Assembly: GCA_020348865.1 (NCBI GenBank)
Contig: CP070754.1
Location: forward strand, 160,780 to 205,907
Length of the DNA: 45,128 nucleotides
Direction: 5' to 3'
Source: Candidatus Bathyarchaeota archaeon
Lineage (GTDB): Archaea > Thermoproteota > Bathyarchaeia > Bathyarchaeales > Bathyarchaeaceae
This document shows positions 4,762 to 14,698 of this stretch, one piece after another. The notes under the pieces are model-generated. The model was not told the DNA's origin and did no database searches. It was given only the letters and a program-made list of their open reading frames with translations. The first letter of the stretch is position 1; every line of letters begins with the position of its first letter. The translations under genes were made by a program, and so were the position numbers.

Positions 4762-5053
4762 TAGAACTCACAATATGAGGATTCGTATGGAATATCTTGC
4801 TACACACAAAGAACGTTCATTCTTCCTCCATTTGAAAACCGTAGTCTCTGGATCTGTGAATCGCGTAGGCACCCTCAAAACGATGCTCCCATGTGCAAAT
4901 TCAAAGAAGCGCTAGCAAATGGAGTCTCAATACGGATTTCTAGTACGTAGAGAAATTTCATAACCATAATATGCGGAGCCGATGAAACGGAAGTAACGTA
5001 CTCGAAACTGATTCGGAATTAGAATCGGAAATCAAGTCCTAGCATAACCAGCA

Positions 5054-6004
5054 GTGGTGCAAAATTTGGAGGGTAATTCGAAGACGGCGACAGTCTTACG
5101 CAACCAAGAAGTAGTTGGACGCATGGTGGGACAGAAGTTTGTCAGAGAAGACAAAGGGCTTCATAAGTCCCTTGGAATAATCGCGGATGTGCTTCGGAAT
5201 TTTGATCTTTCAACAAATGAAATAAGAATCTATCTTCACCTCGCAAGATCAGGGTTTCCCATTAAAGCACGTGAGATTTCGGATGCTCTTTCGCTCCATA
5301 GAACTGAAACGTACAAGATTCTTCGAAAACTGGAGAAGCGTGGACTCGTATCCTCTGTGTTCGAGAAACCAATGAAATTTCTGGCTGTCCCTTTTGAGAA
5401 AACAATAGGCCACCTTATAGAAACTAAGAGAATGGGAATAAGTCTGCTGGAAAGGAAGAAGAAAGATCTTCTTGCTGTGTGGTCTTCGATTCCAAAGTTT
5501 GACAAGGAACCCACTGCTGCAAGTGTGTTCCAGATATTGGAGGGCAAAGAACAAGTCACTTTGAAGCTGAAGGAAATGCTGGAGAAAGCAGAAAGAGAAA
5601 TCTGCATGTTTGCTCCCAAATCAGACCTAGTGCGGTTCTATTATTGGGGTGTTATGGATGAGCTGGAAGAAGCCTTAAAGAAGGCCACCAAAGTCTGGTT
5701 CTTAACTGACCGTTCATCCGAAAGCCGCTTCTTTGTTAACAAGACACGATTGTCCCGGAAGAAGTGTGCAGACGCGCCAAACATCCAAGATCTACCAAGT
5801 TTCATAATATCTGACCAGACGCAGGTGCTCCTCCGTATCAAAGAAAGTGGCGTTAACAACAGAGCGAAAAGGGAGAAAAAGGAGAAAATCCGTTTTCTAT
5901 GGACAAACTATGACTCCTTCATCAAGGTTCTCAAAACATTATTTCCGTTGTTATGGAATACCAAGGTCGCATCAAGTCCTGTTTTAGCACTAATCGAAGC
6001 ATAG
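5054..6004 (+). CDS. TrmB-family transcriptional regulator
   Basis: The 316-residue protein has a winged helix-turn-helix at about residues 50-110: FDLSTNEIRIYLHLARSG, then AREISDALSLHRTETYKILR as the recognition region and GLVSS with the wing. This is the TrmB N-terminal pattern. A short helix (residues about 125-150) and a C-terminal effector-type domain follow. TrmB proteins bind sugars or other small ligands and act as repressors or activators; the ligand cannot be told here. The start is a GTG at 5054, and an in-frame ATG at 5123 also leaves the HTH intact. It lies directly upstream of the pilin locus in the same orientation but is separated by 139 nt with its own promoter-like sequence, so regulation of the pilus genes is possible but unproven. 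Confidence 0.75.
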   Translation: MVQNLEGNSKTATVLRNQEVVGRMVGQKFVREDKGLHKSLGIIADVLRNFDLSTNEIRIYLHLARSGFPIKAREISDALSLHRTETYKILRKLEKRGLVSSVFEKPMKFLAVPFEKTIGHLIETKRMGISLLERKKKDLLAVWSSIPKFDKEPTAASVFQILEGKEQVTLKLKEMLEKAEREICMFAPKSDLVRFYYWGVMDELEEALKKATKVWFLTDRSSESRFFVNKTRLSRKKCADAPNIQDLPSFIISDQTQVLLRIKESGVNNRAKREKKEKIRFLWTNYDSFIKVLKTLFPLLWNTKVASSPVLALIEA

Positions 6005-6072
6005 ATGTATTCGTCTTTCCAGAATTGTCCATGCATTTTTGCTTCTAATCTGGATTCGAACCTGAATCACTA

Positions 6073-6096
6073 GTTCATAACACATATATCATATCT
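6073..6096 (+). promoter_or_regulatory. Promoter of the pilin locus, element shared with the CBS gene
   Basis: A 24-nt stretch beginning GTTCATAACACATATATC contains a TATA-box core (CATATATC) about 55 nt before the pilin ATG. The same 24 nt, with one mismatch, occurs on the opposite strand at 14402-14425 just upstream of the CBS-domain gene. A CTGAATC heptamer lies 4 nt upstream of both copies. Confidence 0.6.
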
Positions 6097-6143
6097 GCAG
6101 ACGTAATAGACCATACGCATAAAACGTTGGAGAAAAAAGAAAA

Positions 6144-6698
6144 ATGGAACGCCTCTTGAAAAGCAAGAAGGGACTTAGCACAGTGGTCACAACGCTGATC
6201 ATCCTAGTTATTTCAGTGTTACTGGCAACAGTTGTCACATACTACGCTATGAACATAGTCGGCACCAGGGTAATCCAAGAAGACGGCAGAATAACACAAC
6301 TACACATCTGGGTAAACACCACAACTGGCAGCACCCAACCCTCAGAAGCCTGTTTCCTCTTCAAGAACACTGGTGGACGAGACGCACTGATAGACAAAGT
6401 CACGGTGCGCTACCAAGACATCCCTTGGTCAGACGTGTATTACTACTTAACCACTGATACAATCTCAGCTGATATGAACTATACTAACGGACCGCTAGTA
6501 GACGGCATCACCATCGATTCTAGGAACTTCACGCAAGCTACACAGGACATAAGTCTAGAAACTGGGTGGTCATTGCTGGTCTACATCGACGATCCTGACA
6601 CAATTGACAGCCTTGACATTGGAACACCTGTTCCAATAGGTGTCCACTCAAGCAACGCAATCTACTACAAAGAAACAAACGTCCAAGCAGAAAGTTAG
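6144..6698 (+). CDS. Archaeal type IV pilin with class III signal peptide
   Basis: The 184-residue protein begins with a short basic leader ending in KSKKG, followed by LSTVVTTLIILVISVLLATV, the hydrophobic assembly helix. This is the archaeal class III signal peptide: PibD-type peptidase should cut after Gly10, leaving the helix to pack in the filament core. The rest is a beta-rich head with N-x-S/T sequons, likely glycosylated and exposed. A GGAG Shine-Dalgarno lies about 11 nt upstream of the ATG and a TATA-like sequence at about 6081-6090. It is the first gene of the filament locus and probably the major subunit, though the locus holds another good pilin candidate at 14699. A T-rich tract follows directly downstream, so it may be transcribed alone at high level. 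Confidence 0.8.
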   Translation: MERLLKSKKGLSTVVTTLIILVISVLLATVVTYYAMNIVGTRVIQEDGRITQLHIWVNTTTGSTQPSEACFLFKNTGGRDALIDKVTVRYQDIPWSDVYYYLTTDTISADMNYTNGPLVDGITIDSRNFTQATQDISLETGWSLLVYIDDPDTIDSLDIGTPVPIGVHSSNAIYYKETNVQAES

Positions 6699-7045
6699 GC
6701 CACAACCCCTCCTTTTCTTTTTTTTCACGTACAAACGTGAGCATTAACCATTAGTTTCATATTTGCACCCACCTGCAAATCAACCGATTTCCTGCTCAAA
6801 CAGATATCATCATAGATGCAACCAGTCCGCTCCTCTTTCCTATAATGCTCCTTCGGCTGGGTATGTAGTAGCTGTCTACACACAAACCATCTTATTTTGT
6901 CTAAACGATGTCCTAGTCTGAGGATACTAATGGGAAAGTGAGTGACTTTGCCCCTTGAGGACAATGAGAACCTGACTACACAATCAGAGCATCCTATAAG
7001 AGTTCTCTCTTCTCCACCTCTTTCTCACTCAGTGAGCTGGGTCAC
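6699..7045. other. Gene-free stretch between pilin and rest of the filament locus
   Basis: These 347 nt contain no coding region that I can support. The left end carries a T-rich tract (about 6713-6725) followed by a small inverted repeat at 6726-6739 (CACGT, ACAA, ACGTG), which fits transcription termination after the pilin gene. The right end has a TATA-like CCTATAAG at about 6993-7000, 45 nt before the next ATG. The middle shows nothing that I recognise. Confidence 0.45.
6708..6739 (+). terminator. Possible terminator after the pilin gene
   Basis: A T-rich tract is followed by a 5-bp inverted repeat with a 4-nt loop (CACGT, ACAA, ACGTG). Archaeal termination needs mainly the T tract, which is present. 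Confidence 0.4.
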
Positions 7046-7882
7046 ATGAATCGAAGAGAACAACAAACATTGGCAACCACAATCTGGCAGTCAAAAAAAG
7101 GAATTGCTATTCCAATCACTTTCCTAGTGATGTTTGTATCCCTTACACTTCTTGTCTGCACCACATATTTCTTCGCTATCGACAGAATAAGCTCTGAGAG
7201 TTCTCTCCTCAAAGTCTCCGCAGCCAAAAAGGGTATGTTTTCGTTTGAGAATTCGGTGGCATCAGTCACATGGTCTCCCGGATCTTCTCAAATCTACTAC
7301 TTCGGAAACTATGAAGGGATTCTAACGACGGCGCCAGAAGACAAAAGGTTGGTGATCAACGTCACAGACGGTTCATTCTCTGATATCGTGTTCAACAGCA
7401 CAATTGGAAGCGTCACCTACACGTTGCCTGCTTCAAGTGCACAGAACGAGGATTTCTATCCAAAAGGTGATAGCAGGGTTATAGTCAACCAAAGCGCATC
7501 CACAATGACTCAACTTCACATTCTCATGGACACAGAATCTCAACGAATAGAGCTCAGCTACAGGCCACTAGCATCCTCTTCACTCATATCCTCAGACAAT
7601 GGAAAGCCTGTAAACAACATAAGAATCTACATCGTTAACCTCAATTCCTCTCAACCCTTCACCTTCCAGGGAAACTTCTACGTCAAAGTCGCTTGCATCA
7701 ATATCACTTGCACAACTCGGAGCTATAACTTCACAGACCAAATAACTAACCTCTCAGTCAAATCAATTCTAGACGGCGTCAGCGGCACAGTTAGGCTTCC
7801 GATTTCAAGCAGCGAGGAGGGCGCCATAGTTGACCTGGAGGTGGTAGCCTGCAACGTTCAGCTGCAGAGGACGGGGGTGTAA
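7046..7882 (+). CDS. Pilin-like secreted protein of the filament locus
   Basis: The 278-residue protein has a basic leader ending in QSKKG and then IAIPITFLVMFVSLTLLVCT, so it resembles a class III signal peptide with cleavage after Gly19. The remaining 230 residues are beta-rich, with numerous N-x-S/T sequons and four cysteines near the C-terminus (CINITC and a later C), and look extracytoplasmic. It is larger than a typical major pilin, so a minor pilin or tip component is the better guess. It begins a run of closely spaced genes leading into the assembly ATPase. No specific family is recognised. Confidence 0.65.
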   Translation: MNRREQQTLATTIWQSKKGIAIPITFLVMFVSLTLLVCTTYFFAIDRISSESSLLKVSAAKKGMFSFENSVASVTWSPGSSQIYYFGNYEGILTTAPEDKRLVINVTDGSFSDIVFNSTIGSVTYTLPASSAQNEDFYPKGDSRVIVNQSASTMTQLHILMDTESQRIELSYRPLASSSLISSDNGKPVNNIRIYIVNLNSSQPFTFQGNFYVKVACINITCTTRSYNFTDQITNLSVKSILDGVSGTVRLPISSSEEGAIVDLEVVACNVQLQRTGV

Positions 7883-7886
7883 CCAA

Positions 7887-8339
7887 ACGCCATCGATAGC
7901 CGTAAGCAACTTCTTGGGCTCCGTCGCGCTAATAGCGGCCAGCGCTCTGCTTGTAGGTTCATTCAGCTTCTACACAATCACTGTCCGAACCATACCCGAA
8001 AATCAGGAACTCCAAAACATAATTAACCATCTTGCAGCCAAGGGCAGTGAGCTTCTGACACTGGTAACTGTCACCAACTCCACCACACGTCTTTTCGAAT
8101 ATCTACCACCAAGAATTGGTGACCAACAATACTGGGTACAACTGCGAAATGACTCCTCAAACACTTGGCTAGAAGGTGCATTAGGCCAACTCGAAGAGAG
8201 AGAAGCAACCATCCAGGTTTTCCTGCCCAGAAAGATATCCGCCTCAGGTCAATACGTTGGGGGACATGGATCTGCAATCCTAGAATGCTACATGAACTCT
8301 TCGGTTCTTCAACTCAACCTATCTTCTGCAGGAGGCTGA
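7887..8339 (+). CDS. Membrane-anchored pilus-locus protein, probable ACG start
   Basis: The only canonical start in this frame is a TTG at 7914. Upstream codons from 7887 read PSIAVSNFLGS, which closely parallels the start of the paralogue-like protein at 11459 (MPASSIDTFLACS). The codon before PS is ACG at 7887-7889, placed 7 nt after a strong GGGGGTG Shine-Dalgarno that overlaps the end of the previous gene. I therefore extend the gene to 7887 as a probable ACG start, or an ATG with a base error. The product (150 residues from ACG, 141 from TTG) has one N-terminal helix (VALIAASALLVGSFSFYTIT) and a short extracytoplasmic domain with sequons. It likely forms part of the filament or its base; the function is unknown. 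Confidence 0.6.
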   Translation, partial: TPSIAVSNFLGSVALIAASALLVGSFSFYTITVRTIPENQELQNIINHLAAKGSELLTLVTVTNSTTRLFEYLPPRIGDQQYWVQLRNDSSNTWLEGALGQLEEREATIQVFLPRKISASGQYVGGHGSAILECYMNSSVLQLNLSSAGG

Positions 8340-8345
8340 CGAAAA

Positions 8346-9941
8346 ATGCAGTTCAAGTTGAAGCCTGGAAAGAAACGCAACAAAGAGGAAGAAGATGAAG
8401 GTATAACCGAAGAAGCCTTAGTTGGGTACCTAGACATCGAAGGATGGACTGTTCCTGAAGGATATTTTGAAGTTGAGACATACTCCCTCAAACCTCCATT
8501 CTCCTACGCCGCTATAGTCCAAAACGAAGACACCGCAGAATATCTCTACATCGTCAACGAACTGATTTTGAAGAAGAAAGAGGTAGAAGCATACAACAGA
8601 ATGCGAAACATTCTGGAATACACGCTAAAAGCTCCTAAAGATGGGGAAAGCCTGGACCATTCTTTTCACGAACAGATACCAGAAATTATGGCAGTCTATC
8701 CGAAAGCTTTCAAAGGTATCCCACCTATTGAAACAAAAAAGATACTGTACTATCTAGAACGCGACATCATTGGCTACGGGAAAATCGATCCCTTGATGTT
8801 TGACCCGTATATCGAAGACATCAGCTGTAATGGTCCGAGGAAACCGATGTTCTTGTGGCATAGAAACTACGAGAACGTAAAAACCAACATTGTTTTCCAG
8901 GACGACGAGAAACTAAACAATTTTGTCATGAGAATTGTCCACAGAGCTGGAAAACATGTCAGCATCGCTTTCCCGATTGTAGATATCACCCTTCCAGGCA
9001 AGCATCGTCTAGCTGTGTCATTCGGAACGGAAATCACCCCTACTGGAACAAACTTCACCATAAGGAAATTTCGCAAAGACCCGTTCACCATAATTGACCT
9101 AATCGAAAACGAGACAATCGATGAAACCATAGCCGCATACTTGTGGCTACTGATGGAAACTAAAACACCTCTGATGATAATTGGCGCCACAGGGGCAGGC
9201 AAGACAACAGCTTTGAACGGAGTCGCATGCCTAATACGCCCCAACTACAAAATCATAACAGTAGAAGAAGTAGCAGAAATAAACCTACCACACGAAAACT
9301 GGAGTTCTACAATTTCACGTTCAGGATTCGGAGTCGAGAGAGAAGGAGAAATCCCGCTCTTCGACCTCGTCAAATCAGCTGTAAGACATCGTCCAGACAT
9401 CATAATTGTGGGCGAAGTGCGAGGAGCAGAAGCCTATGTTCTCTTCCAAGCGCTCGCCACAGGGCATGGCGGAGTCTGCACAATGCACGCTGAAGACGTG
9501 AACGCAGCAGTCCAAAGGCTTACTCAACCACCAATGAACATTCCAGCCTCGATTATTCCATTGATGAGATGCGCAATTATGGTGAAACACGTCAGAAAAC
9601 CGCTTTTCATGAAGTCTGGAAAGAGATTGTCAAGCAGAAAATTCACCAGAATCTCTGAAATAAAGGGCGTAGATGCAATACAAGACGTTTCGACTTGGGA
9701 CCCCTCTTCAGACACGTTTCGAAACAAACTTTCCAATAGCTTCCTCCTTAAGAAAATAGCAAAGGATCTGGACTTATCCATCAAAGAACTCATGCAAGAG
9801 TTGGAGCACCGAAAAAGAGTGTTGCTAGAGATGACGGAACATCACATAAGGAGCTTCCGTGAAGTTAACAACACTCTAAGCAAATATCACCAGAACCCCC
9901 GTTTCCTTTTCGAAGAGATCTCTAAGGCAGAAAACTGGTGA
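8346..9941 (+). CDS. Type II/IV secretion system ATPase (ArlI/TadA/PilB-like)
   Basis: This 531-residue protein powers assembly of a type IV filament. Residues 1-270 form the N-terminal domain. Walker A (GATGAGKT) lies at about 280-287, Walker B region and arginine-rich segment (RPDIIIVGEVRGAEA) at about 348-362, and the His box (ATGHGGVCTMHAE) at about 370-382. These are hallmarks of the GspE/ArlI superfamily of hexameric ATPases. The length matches archaeal family members. It starts 6 nt after the preceding gene and is followed by the TadC/ArlJ-like platform gene only 6 nt downstream, so the two are co-transcribed and should form the cytoplasmic motor. ArlH and other archaellum stator genes are not in the window, so an adhesive pilus is more likely than an archaellum. 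Confidence 0.92.
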   Translation: MQFKLKPGKKRNKEEEDEGITEEALVGYLDIEGWTVPEGYFEVETYSLKPPFSYAAIVQNEDTAEYLYIVNELILKKKEVEAYNRMRNILEYTLKAPKDGESLDHSFHEQIPEIMAVYPKAFKGIPPIETKKILYYLERDIIGYGKIDPLMFDPYIEDISCNGPRKPMFLWHRNYENVKTNIVFQDDEKLNNFVMRIVHRAGKHVSIAFPIVDITLPGKHRLAVSFGTEITPTGTNFTIRKFRKDPFTIIDLIENETIDETIAAYLWLLMETKTPLMIIGATGAGKTTALNGVACLIRPNYKIITVEEVAEINLPHENWSSTISRSGFGVEREGEIPLFDLVKSAVRHRPDIIIVGEVRGAEAYVLFQALATGHGGVCTMHAEDVNAAVQRLTQPPMNIPASIIPLMRCAIMVKHVRKPLFMKSGKRLSSRKFTRISEIKGVDAIQDVSTWDPSSDTFRNKLSNSFLLKKIAKDLDLSIKELMQELEHRKRVLLEMTEHHIRSFREVNNTLSKYHQNPRFLFEEISKAENW

Positions 9942-9947
9942 GCCGTT

Positions 9948-11447
9948 TTGTCTGCATCCTCCAAAATGCGAGAAGTAATGAATCGAGTATTCAGCCTCTT
10001 GACTACAGATGAATCTCGGCAAATCGACCTGGAACTTCCATTCACGATATTAATGTTCGCCTTGATGACTGCCAGCGGAATTACGCTCTATGAAGGCTGG
10101 AAGAAACTGTGTTCTGTCAACCTTCTTCCTAGGACGAAAAAAGAAGCAAAAGAAATAGTTAGACGAGTTGAAGTCTTGGCACGAGACCCACTGACAGTAA
10201 TGTACAGGAAAGCTGAAGAAACCAAGTCTAAAAATTATCGCGAGTTTCTGGTAGGCTATGTTTCAGCAATGAAGAGCGGAGGAAACGTATTGTCCTTCTT
10301 GAGAAGCAAGTTGAGTTCCATTCTTGCGATACGAAGTGCTGCTGCCAAGCAATCGGTTGAAACCTTGGCTACCCTTGTGGAGGTTTACACAGTCATGTTG
10401 GTTGTAACCTTATGCTGTTACATACTCTTCGTAGTGATGTTTTCCAGCGGAATACTAGGCGCCATGGGGGTCTCAACATCAATTGAGGCGTCTCCAATCA
10501 CGTATTTTCTATTCATGTTCTTGACATCTCTAATGTCAGTTGCATTGATGATGATTGCTCACCTCACACGAAAGAGTAATCTAATCGCTCTCAAGAAACC
10601 GTATGTAAGAGCCATGTTTCCACTTGTAGGTATGTTGATTTTCTTCGTTTTAATAATTTTCTTGCCCCAGCTTCAGTTCGTAGTTGATTTGCTTGGGATG
10701 CCACTCTTAGCTTTGATTTGCCTGTTGCTCATATCTATCCCACCAATATTCAGCTATCGAAAAATCGCTAAAAAGAATTTCGCAGCTGAGGATGCGATGC
10801 CAAGCTTTCTGCGCGATGTGACTGAAGCTCGTAAAACAGGGCTTTCACCTGAGACGTGTATCATACAAGCATCCAAAAGAAGAGAGTACGGAAGTTTTTC
10901 TGAAGTCTTGGGGCTAATTAGAAATCAGATTGAGTGGGGGGTGCCTCTCAGAAGCATCTTCAGAAACATTGGGGAACGCCTGAAAAGTTGGCCCGTTCTT
11001 GTGAACTTCTTTGTCCTTATTGAAAGCATAGAAGTGGGGGGTGGCTCGGCTAATGCCCTTGGAATTCTGACCGAATACAGCGAGAAAAGCAGAGACATAG
11101 AAAAGACGAAGCGCAACATGCTTAAACCCTACATTCTGTTATCCTTCATCTGGAGCGTTCTGTTGTCTTTTACCATGACGACGTTAACTATTATTATGAA
11201 CGCCCTCAACCAGATTTCAGTCGTAGGTGTGACTCAAGGAATCGTCACTTCATTACAGCCAACAATAGGACTCTTCTCTGCAGGGGTCATCTTTCAATGT
11301 TGGCTATCCGGATTCTTCATGGGCAAAGTCAGTGACGGATCATTTGCAGCAGGCTTCAAATATTCAGCTATGCTCGCAGTCGCAGCCTACCTGTCACTTC
11401 TGGTGTCCCAAAGTCTCCTGGGAAACATGTTCAATCTGATACCTTAG
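9948..11447 (+). CDS. Type II secretion F-domain platform protein (TadC/ArlJ-like)
   Basis: The 499-residue integral membrane protein is the expected partner of the upstream ATPase. It has a hydrophobic segment near residues 28-47, clusters of membrane helices at about 145-270 and 395-490, and two cytoplasmic F-type domains rich in charged helices (about 60-140 and 275-390). The motif TGLSPETCIIQASKR followed by EWGVPLRSIFRNIGER is typical of T2SSF domains. The start is a TTG at 9948; an ATG 6 codons in is an alternative. It anchors the growing filament base in the membrane and transmits the motion of the ATPase. It is followed after 11 nt by a secreted protein gene. Confidence 0.88.
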   Translation: MSASSKMREVMNRVFSLLTTDESRQIDLELPFTILMFALMTASGITLYEGWKKLCSVNLLPRTKKEAKEIVRRVEVLARDPLTVMYRKAEETKSKNYREFLVGYVSAMKSGGNVLSFLRSKLSSILAIRSAAAKQSVETLATLVEVYTVMLVVTLCCYILFVVMFSSGILGAMGVSTSIEASPITYFLFMFLTSLMSVALMMIAHLTRKSNLIALKKPYVRAMFPLVGMLIFFVLIIFLPQLQFVVDLLGMPLLALICLLLISIPPIFSYRKIAKKNFAAEDAMPSFLRDVTEARKTGLSPETCIIQASKRREYGSFSEVLGLIRNQIEWGVPLRSIFRNIGERLKSWPVLVNFFVLIESIEVGGGSANALGILTEYSEKSRDIEKTKRNMLKPYILLSFIWSVLLSFTMTTLTIIMNALNQISVVGVTQGIVTSLQPTIGLFSAGVIFQCWLSGFFMGKVSDGSFAAGFKYSAMLAVAAYLSLLVSQSLLGNMFNLIP

Positions 11448-11458
11448 GTGATTTAACG

Positions 11459-12535
11459 ATGCCAGCTTCTTCCATTGACACATTTCTTGCTTGTTCAGTT
11501 ATGATTGCCCTGGTGTTATCAGCGATTGTGGGCACAACTGGCATTTTGCATCCTTACTTGAGCGGTCTTACATACGAAAACCATGTTGAAAGACACAACC
11601 AGCTTGCCAAATACTTGCTTCTAACCACTGGCGAACCACCAGAATGGGGACACCTGTCGGAAGCTGTTCCGTACAGTTTTGGCTTAGCATCAGCGAACTC
11701 TTTTCATCCTTACGAACTAGATATTGACAAAGTCTCACGCCTGAACAACGAAAGCGTTTATTCCATTACATACCCTCAACTTCTAGAGTCTTTTGGTGCT
11801 AGGGATGTCGCCCTAAAAATTGAAATCGGAACCATATTCGATTTTTCCGTAGAGCTAACTTCGACTTCTGGAGGGGACAATGAAACAACGTACAATTTTG
11901 AGTTTATGACGGAAAAATCGGGACTTCCAGTTTCAGCTCAGTTACGAGGCTACGTCATCGTCAAAGACCACGTTCAAAGTATGATTTCATCCACTTCGTC
12001 CACGGGGAATGGTTCCGCAAACGTAACGATTCCGAACTCAACAAATGGGACGACTCTGCTCGTAGCCTTCGCAGAAACAAAGCCGCAGATAATGGCTTTC
12101 AACGTTTACTCTTTTGGTCATAACTCGTCAACTCCAAAACCTAACGGAACATTCATGAGGCTAAGTCCATTGGATTTTGTGCTGAACGCTTCATTCTCAT
12201 ATTCAGACGAAGAAATCCTGAGAGCATATGTCTTCACATACAACTACTACTTCAACTTGACAAAGATTTCCGGAGATAATCAGACAGCCGAATATAGTCT
12301 CCCTCGCTTGCTGGATTCCAGCCCAATGATACTCGTGCTTACAGGATTCAACGGAACATTTTCCTTTGCCGAATGGGTGTCATATCCGCAACTGCCATTG
12401 GAAATAGGTGCAGATCTCAGCAAATCCAACGTAGTCTCGTTCACCTACATCGTGACCATAAACTACGCGTTCTACGATTTCACAATAAAATGCGGAGGGG
12501 TGACTTTTGATTACGTCCAACAAAGGACAGATTAA
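11459..12535 (+). CDS. Membrane-anchored secreted protein of the filament locus
   Basis: The 358-residue protein has one N-terminal helix (SVMIALVLSAIVGTTGI) without the usual KKG cleavage site, then an all-extracytoplasmic domain rich in beta strands and N-x-S/T sequons. A good Shine-Dalgarno (AGGTGAT) precedes the ATG. Its N-terminus resembles that of the smaller gene at 7887. The pattern fits a minor pilin-like or pseudopilin-like component that may not be processed by the peptidase. The gene overlaps the next one by 29 nt, which points to translational coupling. No named family is recognised. Confidence 0.65.
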   Translation: MPASSIDTFLACSVMIALVLSAIVGTTGILHPYLSGLTYENHVERHNQLAKYLLLTTGEPPEWGHLSEAVPYSFGLASANSFHPYELDIDKVSRLNNESVYSITYPQLLESFGARDVALKIEIGTIFDFSVELTSTSGGDNETTYNFEFMTEKSGLPVSAQLRGYVIVKDHVQSMISSTSSTGNGSANVTIPNSTNGTTLLVAFAETKPQIMAFNVYSFGHNSSTPKPNGTFMRLSPLDFVLNASFSYSDEEILRAYVFTYNYYFNLTKISGDNQTAEYSLPRLLDSSPMILVLTGFNGTFSFAEWVSYPQLPLEIGADLSKSNVVSFTYIVTINYAFYDFTIKCGGVTFDYVQQRTD

Positions 12536-12929
12536 GACTTTGGAAGCTTTCCTGGCAGTCATAATCATATTTTCAGCGCTAATCCTCTCCACTACGTTTT
12601 CTACCCAAGAAAGCCACAACAATCAAAAATCGCTGGCAACTTCAGGAATGCAGGTCTTAGTTGAGCTTGACGTCAATGGCACTCTAGGAAAACTAATCAA
12701 CCAACGGAACTCTACTGCCATAATAGAGTCTCTAACAATTCTATTGCCCACAGGCGTCTCGTACAACCTTACAGTCTATAATGACCAAGGAAACCCGATG
12801 AGCAACTTAGCCATCTCTAATGGCAACCTCGCTGGCCGCAAGGTTGAATCCATTCAGTATCTCTGCGCTAGCCAAAGTTTGGAGCCTCAACATTACCTGC
12901 TTCAGCTACAATTAGCAATGGCTGGGTGA
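12507..12929 (+). CDS. Minor pilin-like protein
   Basis: The 140-residue protein begins MITSNKG and continues QIKTLEAFLAVIIIFSALI. The NKG before the hydrophobic helix, with Glu near position +6 of the mature chain, closely follows the type IV pilin pattern, so cleavage after Gly7 is likely. The start is a TTG behind a strong GGAGGGGTGA Shine-Dalgarno located inside the preceding gene. The head domain is short. It overlaps the next gene by 4 nt (GTGA). It is probably a minor pilin or priming subunit. Confidence 0.7.
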   Translation: MITSNKGQIKTLEAFLAVIIIFSALILSTTFSTQESHNNQKSLATSGMQVLVELDVNGTLGKLINQRNSTAIIESLTILLPTGVSYNLTVYNDQGNPMSNLAISNGNLAGRKVESIQYLCASQSLEPQHYLLQLQLAMAG

Positions 12930-13690
12930 GAAAAGTGACCAAAGGAAACAGCTCAGGACAAATTCTCATAGTCGCTGTTCTCATAATAGCATTGCTTATA
13001 ATATCAACCCAACTCTACGTTTACGAGTTCGGGGGAACAATTGGCGAAGCAAACCCAAATTCCTTCGCGAACTCCATTTTCGCGGTCAGATTGAACACCC
13101 AACACGTCGTGATCGGATCACTTGCGAACATTTCAAGAGGCGGATCAAACCAAACTCTATCCGACAACCTGCAAGAATGGGCCTCATTCGTTGGAAGGCA
13201 ATACCAACATGGAAAACTCATCCTGAATTTCACAACCAGAGAGACCACACCTTATTCATCTGGCATATGGATTTCTTGGGGGACGAATGGACTTGCAGTT
13301 TCAGGAGCCTATGTAAACTTCACCCTTCGATTATCAGACCGAGGTCCAAACGTTAACACAACGCACGCAGTAAACATAACCACCGCCATTCGGATTAATG
13401 GCACATACAAAGCCCTGCAAGGTAATGACGTACAGGTCAACGTAACATGCAATCTTTTAAACGAAGCAAAACCCGCTCTCGTGGAAAACACCACTTTATA
13501 CTACAAGAACGAGACAGACTGGTTACCTGTGAATCCCCAGAACAACTACACAATCATGAACTACGGTAACGGGACGTATTTTATGTCCTTTGTGGCAAAC
13601 ATTCCTTCCAGTAATGTAGAGGTGTCCATGCACGCTTATGATTATAGGGGGATATACGTCCAAACTAGTGTTACATGTACTGAAATCTAA
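12926..13690 (+). CDS. Pilin-like secreted protein with sequon-rich head
   Basis: The 254-residue product has a basic N-terminus, then SSG and QILIVAVLIIALLIISTQL, which looks like a pilin assembly helix with an unusual leader. The remaining part is beta-rich with many N-x-S/T sequons (for example NISRG, NQTLS, NFTTR), consistent with a glycosylated exposed domain. The GTG start overlaps the preceding stop in a 4-nt GTGA, so the two are translationally coupled. It closes the ATPase-containing operon, and the next gene is on the other strand. It is probably a minor pilin. Confidence 0.65.
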   Translation: MRKVTKGNSSGQILIVAVLIIALLIISTQLYVYEFGGTIGEANPNSFANSIFAVRLNTQHVVIGSLANISRGGSNQTLSDNLQEWASFVGRQYQHGKLILNFTTRETTPYSSGIWISWGTNGLAVSGAYVNFTLRLSDRGPNVNTTHAVNITTAIRINGTYKALQGNDVQVNVTCNLLNEAKPALVENTTLYYKNETDWLPVNPQNNYTIMNYGNGTYFMSFVANIPSSNVEVSMHAYDYRGIYVQTSVTCTEI

Positions 13691-13849
13691 ACCTAGGCGT
13701 TCTTTTCATATCCTCTGCATTTCCCCGTAGCAATGTACATCTACAATAAATCTCGATTTTGATCTAGCATGAGTTGCCTAGGTAGCTGGAAGAAAGAGAG
13801 AGGGGACTCGGTAACCAAGCGCCCTTCCAGGTTGTGTTACTTGTCGCTC

Positions 13850-14374
13850 CTACTTGTTCAAGTTCCGGACGAGACGATGACTGTTTGCTGCAAGCACGTC
13901 AGGGTTGAATTCAGTGTGAAGCAACAGGTAATAGTCAAAAACCTTCTTCATTCGTCTGGGAGCGAGGTCGCTGGTGAATATCTTGTACATTCTTATAAGT
14001 TGAGGTTGAATACGCAGAATATCTGTCAGTGTCAACAAACCAAGAAGTTTTCCATTTTTGACTATTGGAAGTTTCTTAATCTTTTTGCTGAACATGACTT
14101 TGGCTGCTTCCTCAATCTCCATGTTGGGTGCAGCAGATATGATGGGGCTTGTCATTATTTCCGCAACTTCTTCCTTCAGATTCTTCGGTGACTCAGCTAA
14201 GACCCTCTTCAAGAGGTCTCTCTCTGTGACTATTCCCACAGGCTTTCCATCATCTACTACAATCAAACATCCTATCTCTTTCTCGTTCATCAACTTAGCA
14301 GCGTCTTTCACCGTTGTATCTGTTTTAGTTGTAATAACCTTGTCAACCATGATTTCATTAACTTCAAGCGACAT
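13850..14374 (-). CDS. Two-CBS-domain protein
   Basis: The 174-residue protein (start at the ATG that gives MSLEVNEIM) contains a tandem pair of CBS motifs: residues about 5-60 (TTVKDAAKLMNEKEIGCLIV, then GKPVGIVTERDLLKRV) and about 70-125 (EEAAKVMFSKKIKKLPIV, then GKLLGLLTLTDILR). A C-terminal helical stretch follows. CBS pairs bind adenosyl ligands such as AMP, ATP or SAM and act as energy sensors. The frame is open further upstream, but a TATA box at 14406-14416 lies 32 nt before this ATG, giving a nearly leaderless message. The gene sits inside the filament locus on the opposite strand, and its promoter shares a 24-nt element with the pilin promoter, so a regulatory link to the filament is plausible. 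Confidence 0.85.
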   Translation of the reverse strand: MSLEVNEIMVDKVITTKTDTTVKDAAKLMNEKEIGCLIVVDDGKPVGIVTERDLLKRVLAESPKNLKEEVAEIMTSPIISAAPNMEIEEAAKVMFSKKIKKLPIVKNGKLLGLLTLTDILRIQPQLIRMYKIFTSDLAPRRMKKVFDYYLLLHTEFNPDVLAANSHRLVRNLNK

Positions 14375-14698
14375 GACGATTACCGAACCAATCTTGTATG
14401 TAGATGTGATATATGTGTTATGAACCGTCGATTCAGATTTGAAGTTGAGGTGCATGAATAATTCGAAATAAGCCGTGTATGTACATTTGTTCACGACATA
14501 ATATCTGAGATTCCGACCATTCCCACAAAGTTCTCGAGAGTAAACGATACGAGTCAACGCGACCAGTCGATAAGGCTGCCCGTGCCATGGTTTGATCGGA
14601 ATCCTGAATCAATCCGTTTACAGCTAATACATAGCTAGGATTCATATATGTTAAATAATGTAGCCCACGAAAATGGTTAGTAAAAGGTGAAGTAAGTC
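14375..14698. other. Divergent promoter region between CBS gene and second pilin
   Basis: These 324 nt hold no gene that I can support. The left end carries the CBS-gene promoter (14402-14425, minus strand). The right end has an AT-rich TATA candidate at about 14643-14657 and a GGTGA Shine-Dalgarno at about 14686-14690 for the TTG start of the pilin at 14699. Confidence 0.5.
14402..14425 (-). promoter_or_regulatory. CBS-gene promoter, element shared with the pilin promoter
   Basis: Read on the minus strand this 24-nt stretch begins GTTCATAACACATATATC and differs from 6073-6096 at one position only. Its TATA core lies about 32 nt before the ATG. A CTGAATC heptamer is placed 4 nt upstream, as in the pilin copy. 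Confidence 0.6.

Follow-up and report, generated by a model that had tools for sequence, protein, structure and literature searches.

The locus analyzed here raises the question of whether a type IV pilin gene and a gene for a CBS-pair protein, which lies antisense inside the same pilus cluster, are controlled by one regulator and, if so, by which. The window (the whole 45,128-nt stretch of DNA that was analyzed) has Bathyarchaeial genomes as its closest relatives. Bathyarchaeia are abundant, uncultured sediment archaea. Our literature search found no paper on the regulation of Bathyarchaeial filaments, and gene regulation in Bathyarchaeia is essentially undescribed in the literature searched. 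A sequence-only reading of the window had proposed that a 24-nt sequence shared by the two promoters reflects control by a single regulator, and had named the TrmB-like protein encoded at 5054 (here TrmB-5054) as the first candidate. It had further suggested a tie between filament production and the CBS protein, which belongs to a type that senses adenylates or SAM in other systems. The explanation that we consider best, with a probability of about 0.6, is that the shared sequence is an operator, that TrmB-5054 is the activator that binds it, and that the two genes belong to a regulon of filament and signaling genes.

Sequence and Anatomy of the Shared Element

The 24-mers at the pilin and CBS promoters differ from each other at a single base, and a CTGAATC heptamer is present 4 nt upstream of each (6062-6068 and 14436-14430, respectively), in positions and letters as had been described. 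A 19-nt sequence, GTTCATAACACATATATCA, matches exactly at both promoters, and there is no longer exact repeat in the window. No match to it was found in dinucleotide shuffles (n = 100), even when 3 mismatches were allowed, and in the whole 1.5-Mb genome it occurs with ≤2 mismatches at the pilin and CBS promoters only. A third genomic copy appears at 3 mismatches, and control patterns had no matches in the whole genome. The longest match with ≤1 mismatch between the upstream regions of the two genes was 24 nt, whereas 400 Markov simulations of intergenic-like sequence gave 13 nt at most. These data bear out the earlier judgement that a match of this kind is unlikely by chance.

Alignment of the pilin and CBS sites revealed that the full element is somewhat longer than the version first noted, being AAYCTGAATCNNNNGTTCATAACA with the TATA box CATATATC directly after it. 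The core of the element, TGAAY-N5-RTTCA, is an inverted repeat. The cross-genome consensus, AATCTGAAT-N5-RTTCATAAY, is a 23-bp imperfect inverted repeat with two half-sites at fixed spacing, which abuts the TATA box on its upstream side and overlaps the BRE position. The distance from operator to start codon is ~60 nt for the pilin gene and ~40 nt for the CBS gene. A weight matrix was constructed from 22 sites, with both window sites included and the NitrOD5 and archaellin sites excluded. The scores of the two operators (Table 1), both of which are among the matrix's training sites, compare with 8.1 for the next best site in the window and ≤11.3 in Markov sequence, and the scan of the window found the element at no gene besides these two.

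Table 1. Coordinates of the promoter elements and genes considered in this study.
Feature	Position	Strand	Sequence or basis
TrmB/TrmBL2-like regulator gene, proposed operator reader	5054..6004	+	PF01978; TrmBL2 structures; half-sites at orthologs
Right half-site and TATA box upstream of TrmB gene	4957..4973	+	TTCATAAC and ATAATATG; left half degenerate
Type IV pilin gene (target), first of pilus cluster	6144..6698	+	Pilin_N PF07790, E 2e-4, below Pfam cut-off
24-mer, pilin promoter	6073-6096	+	GTTCATAACACATATATCATATCT
Operator, pilin promoter	6059..6082	+	AACCTGAATCACTAGTTCATAACA; matrix score 27.9; kept in G001 and G016
TATA-like box, pilin promoter	6083..6090	+	CATATATC (from sequence); abuts operator
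CBS-pair protein gene, 174 aa (target), antisense inside pilus cluster	13850..14374	-	PF00571, E 2.9e-32
24-mer, CBS promoter	14425-14402	-	GTTCATAACACATATATCACATCT
Operator, CBS promoter	14416..14439	-	AATCTGAATCGACGGTTCATAACA; matrix score 33.8; 21/24 in G001
TATA-like box, CBS promoter	14408..14415	-	CATATATC (from sequence)

Conservation at the Pilin and CBS Genes

In G001, the sister genome (contig CP070679, locus L004), the pilin and CBS genes have the same arrangement as in the genome under study (G000), and the element is present at both promoters. At the CBS locus, the two genomes share 21/24 bases within the element, as compared to 19/60 in the 60 nt before it and 16/37 in the 37 nt after it. 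At the pilin promoter, the element and the next 20 nt are conserved against a diverged upstream sequence. Those 20 nt are 19/20 identical to G001 and 19/20 to a third genome, G016, in which the element is also kept at the pilin promoter. The conservation of the element at both genes in the sister genome supports the proposal of one regulator, and co-regulation of the pilin and CBS genes is well supported. What the shared operator shows, however, is only that the two genes are likely co-expressed.

Among the loci examined, a CBS gene embedded in the pilus cluster was observed in G000 and G001 only. The cluster of G016, a chromosome-level MAG, is interrupted by runs of N (L192, L202), so that the presence of a CBS gene there is not judgeable. 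More distant relatives keep the pilus cluster and lack the element at the pilin promoter, with 3 of 29 pilin upstream regions positive. CBS homologs are in general without the element, the positives being those of G000, G001, and one CBS gene of G018, whose site came from the motif search itself.

The Element across the Genome and the Order

The pattern AATCTGAAT-N6-TTCAYAAYA was searched for with ≤2 mismatches in 151 genomes of the order, using the reversed pattern as a control. This returned 194 sites, versus 60 for the control. By family, the counts were 62 versus 4 in the window's own family, 24 versus 2 in f6, and 89 versus 44 in f7, while family f9 showed no enrichment (8 versus 9); in sampled genomes outside the order the element was scarcer. 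A reading frame begins ≤130 nt downstream, mostly 30-90 nt, at 54 of the 64 sites that were fetched, which places the element at promoters. Three 2-mismatch matches in G000 (513740, 788024, and 1047944) fall within reading frames and were set aside as chance occurrences, and the 19-base core, when taken without its left flank AATC, has some chance matches inside genes.

About four credible sites were identified in G000 in all. In addition to the pilin and CBS promoters, they precede the genes for a 78-aa ATP-cone-like protein (658683) and for a DUF5752 protein (527605). Targets in relatives include genes for NitrOD5-type output domains, MEDS, KaiC-like ATPases, archaellins, and CBS proteins. 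Also among them are genes for a PAS protein and a response regulator, and a rubrerythrin gene in divergent orientation to a CBS gene. Both the NitrOD5 and the ATP-cone assignment score below the Pfam cut-offs. NitrOD5 is one of a family of small output domains in archaeal signaling (PMC5847659). The ATP-cone-like mini-protein (L190, ~4205) is free-standing and is encoded ~1.1 kb upstream of another CBS gene.

Genes were also fetched by protein and their upstream regions then scanned, an approach that avoids the bias of a motif search. The element (p ≤ 0.01) was found in this way at 22/37 NitrOD5-type upstream regions. In family f7, archaellin promoters have it as well, at a distance of 40-50 nt from the start codon and with the right half as its most constant part. 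G000 has two NitrOD5 homologs, and the region upstream of one of them (703768) was scanned and had no element.

The site is conserved, and has a fixed position relative to the TATA box and start codon, at several promoters and in several genomes, as is expected of an operator read by one transcription factor. It is not specific to the pilin and CBS genes, as the sequence-only reading had supposed. That reading was to be given up if the element occurred at many unrelated promoters or was absent from the same genes in relatives. The former holds in part, since there are other promoters with the element, although the target set is small and coherent. As to the latter, G001 has the element at both genes and G016 has it at the pilin gene, but the pilin promoters of distant relatives are without it. 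The element is an instance of a DNA switch that is widespread in Bathyarchaeia and apparently undescribed.

TrmB-5054 as Candidate Reader of the Element

TrmB-5054 has a TrmB winged-helix domain (PF01978, E 9.6e-14, 51.4 bits versus a cut-off of 25.6). There was no second Pfam domain at E 0.01, and the sugar-binding effector domain of classical TrmB was not recognized. That domain marks the classical sugar-sensing TrmB and not the wider TrmB family. The protein scores far under the cut-offs of the NCBIfam TrmB equivalogs, including that for TrmBL2 (NF041141; 30.5 bits versus 530), and it is related to TrmBL2 and not TrmBL2 itself. TrmBL2 has been described as a DNA-binding protein that is abundant and chromatin-like. 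The profile of TrmB-5054 and its predicted model (pLDDT 71.5, moderate) match TrmBL2 structures over the full length, those of Pyrococcus (PDB 5bpd, 5box, and 5bqt) being its closest solved relatives. Whereas Pyrococcus TrmBL2 is chromatin-like, TrmB-5054 is predicted to have a defined operator and a small regulon. The fold of the C-terminal half of TrmB-5054 also resembles PLD-like domains.

The promoters of TrmB-5054 orthologs are rich in half-sites of the element. Upstream of the pilus-cluster orthologs, TCTGAA/TTCAGA half-sites numbered 20 versus 1.5 expected, and upstream of 70 orthologs from the whole order they numbered 114 versus 17.4 expected, with no enrichment at 19 distant TrmB paralogs (2 versus 4.2 expected). 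The sequence TTCAKAA abuts the TATA box at 42 of the 70 ortholog promoters (0.4 expected from shuffles), at 3/20 pilin promoters, and at none of 117 upstream regions of four other pilus-cluster genes. The half-site at orthologs survives thinning by protein identity (26/41 at 80%, 12/16 at 65%, and 4/6 on further thinning). The number of element sites per genome is 2.15 where a close TrmB-5054 ortholog is present (control 0.25) and 0.87 where it is not (control 0.52); the compared genomes are related, so that significance values and p-values are inflated. Taken together, the half-sites at ortholog promoters and the site numbers that track the ortholog suggest that TrmB-5054 reads the element and controls its own gene, and strengthen the case for the candidate that was originally named.

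Other observations hold this assignment to moderate confidence. At TrmB-ortholog promoters, most of the left halves that could be classified are in direct orientation (AATTCATATT), unlike the inverted left halves of the pilin and CBS promoters, giving the layout AATTCATATT-N4-ATTCAGAAG-TATAAAATA. The inverted-repeat model does not fit most of these promoters, many of which have the direct-repeat version. The TrmB promoters of G000 and G001 have the right half only; the G001 block that corresponds to 4957..4973 also retains TTCATAACC and a TATA box. Lastly, two genomes that are 98-99% complete, G002 and G003, have good sites and no close TrmB-5054 ortholog. On balance, we infer from these sequence comparisons that TrmB-5054 probably reads the operator. 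In relatives with the TrmB gene beside the pilin gene, the pilin promoter is without the element.

Upstream of TrmB-5054 orthologs at loci L404-L453 lies a highly conserved promoter, AATTCATATTTTGAATTCAGAAGTATAAAATATAG, whose two half-sites have a direct arrangement, in contrast to the inverted one at target genes. Another TrmB-family gene, in G003 (L371, G003:C36, 2084-3485), is preceded by a strong site; it adjoins a NitrOD5-type gene and looks like a target. This gene was considered as the general regulator and rejected, as its orthologs are missing from most element-bearing genomes and present in family f9, which is element-free.

Alternative Explanations

A reader other than TrmB-5054 is possible but rather unlikely. 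The operator and regulon would then be real, and the binding protein would be of the Lrp/AsnC type, like haloarchaeal CsmR, or a specialized TFB that reads the BRE-adjacent half. The sites in G002 and G003, the differing half-site orientation at TrmB promoters, and the constancy of the right half in archaellin promoters are each consistent with such a reader, and the motif that CsmR reads at archaellum genes, TATCA-N4-TGATA, is a semi-palindrome located upstream of BRE/TATA (PMC13286277). It accounts poorly, however, for half-sites that concentrate at the promoters of TrmB-5054 orthologs and show no such concentration at distant TrmB paralogs or pilus-operon genes, or for site numbers that follow the ortholog across genomes.

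Two further explanations dispense with a regulon altogether. A recent promoter duplication or gene conversion between the pilin and CBS loci, without shared control, could explain why the TATA side is almost identical within G000 and why that of the CBS gene has diverged in G001. However, both half-sites are kept at both genes in G001 despite diverged flanks and genes, and the same element is present at unrelated promoters in many genomes, so that conservation in G001 and G016 largely refutes duplication and leaves it very improbable. The chance is slimmer still that the element is simply the generic Bathyarchaeial core promoter (BRE/TATA). That it directly abuts the TATA box and occurs at several functional classes would fit; its rarity in G000 and in the window, its absence from the 117 pilus-operon upstream regions and from family f9, and its two half-sites at fixed spacing argue against this.

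Proposed Mechanism and Comparison with Known Systems

We return to the operator with TrmB-5054 as its reader. The element would be a transcription-factor operator directly upstream of the BRE/TATA region, which it partly overlaps, and the TrmBL2-like winged-helix protein would most likely bind it as a dimer. Bound TrmB-5054 is predicted to activate pilin and CBS transcription. In TrmB-family systems, an operator upstream of BRE/TATA is associated with activation and one downstream with repression, and the activators bind inverted repeats upstream of BRE/TATA (PMC4158304). EarA, an activator of archaellum genes (PMC10665913), and CsmR, an inferred one (PMC13286277), likewise bind just upstream of the BRE. 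The location of the operator in these three systems suggests that the candidate regulator is most likely an activator that switches on filament and signaling genes together. In addition, adhesion mutants of Haloferax volcanii include a TrmB-family insertion (PMC5198076).

In relatives, the same type of operator is predicted to serve a small regulon of filament genes (pilin and archaellin) and genes for CBS, NitrOD5, MEDS, KaiC, ATP-cone, and DUF5752 proteins, and in most lineages the regulator's own gene would be under it as well. A lineage-wide Bathyarchaeia regulon, in which a TrmBL2-like and usually self-controlled protein activates filaments and nucleotide-sensing or output proteins, with the CBS protein recruited to the pilus locus as a sensor arm, is a tentative extension of these data. 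Its filaments might be pili or archaella, depending on the lineage, and its small proteins CBS, ATP-cone, KaiC, MEDS, and NitrOD5. It could conceivably constitute a filament-and-signaling master regulon outside the EarA and Crenarchaeal Arn systems. With a defined operator, a named candidate regulator, and a short list of targets, the control of Bathyarchaeial pili and archaella becomes tractable, the orphan domains NitrOD5 and DUF5752 and the ATP-cone mini-proteins are assigned to a common regulon, and a coincidence of two promoters grows into a testable order-wide operator.

The closest parallel in geometry is the Thermococcales glycolytic motif (TGM; TATCAC-N5-GTGATA), bound by TrmBL1/Tgr (PMC4158304). 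Like the element, it is an inverted repeat with a 5-nt spacer, it is upstream of BRE/TATA where it activates, and its reader is a TrmB-family winged-helix protein; autoregulation is known in the family (PMC4158304). The sequences differ and only the geometry is alike. TGM targets sugar metabolism, whereas the targets here are filaments and signaling proteins, and no sugar-binding domain model was found in TrmB-5054. EarA of Methanococcus and Pyrococcus is a winged-helix archaellum activator that binds just upstream of the BRE, as is proposed here. At arl operons, however, EarA recognizes short motifs of the TACATA type, which often occur in repeats and lie ~9 nt upstream of the BRE (PMC10665913), and the element differs from such repeats in sequence. 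CsmR of Haloferax volcanii resembles the present case in that its semi-palindrome precedes BRE/TATA, at promoters of archaellum and motility genes, and in that it is an inferred positive regulator; unlike TrmB-5054, it belongs to the Lrp/AsnC family, and its motif is different (PMC13286277).

The CBS Protein and Neighboring Features

The CBS protein is an ordinary two-CBS-domain protein (two stretches of PF00571) whose closest solved chains are CBS proteins, e.g., archaeal MJ1225. We regard it as a partner that is co-expressed and may sense nucleotides, and not as a demonstrated controller of pili. CBS-pair proteins close to it are present in many copies per genome across the order, with up to 11, a lineage expansion.

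Two other features were noted in the window. A second palindromic element, TATGTAG-N7-CTACACACAAA, lies at 6862-6886 (+), just ahead of the TATA box that belongs to the gene at 7046. In relatives, TGTGTAG-N7-CTACRCACAAA is present at the pilin promoter itself, and the element at 6862-6886 may be a further filament operator. The second pilin-like gene (14699) has a divergent promoter (14590-14660) with half-site-like sequences, AATCCTGAATC and GGATTCATATATG, at non-canonical spacing.
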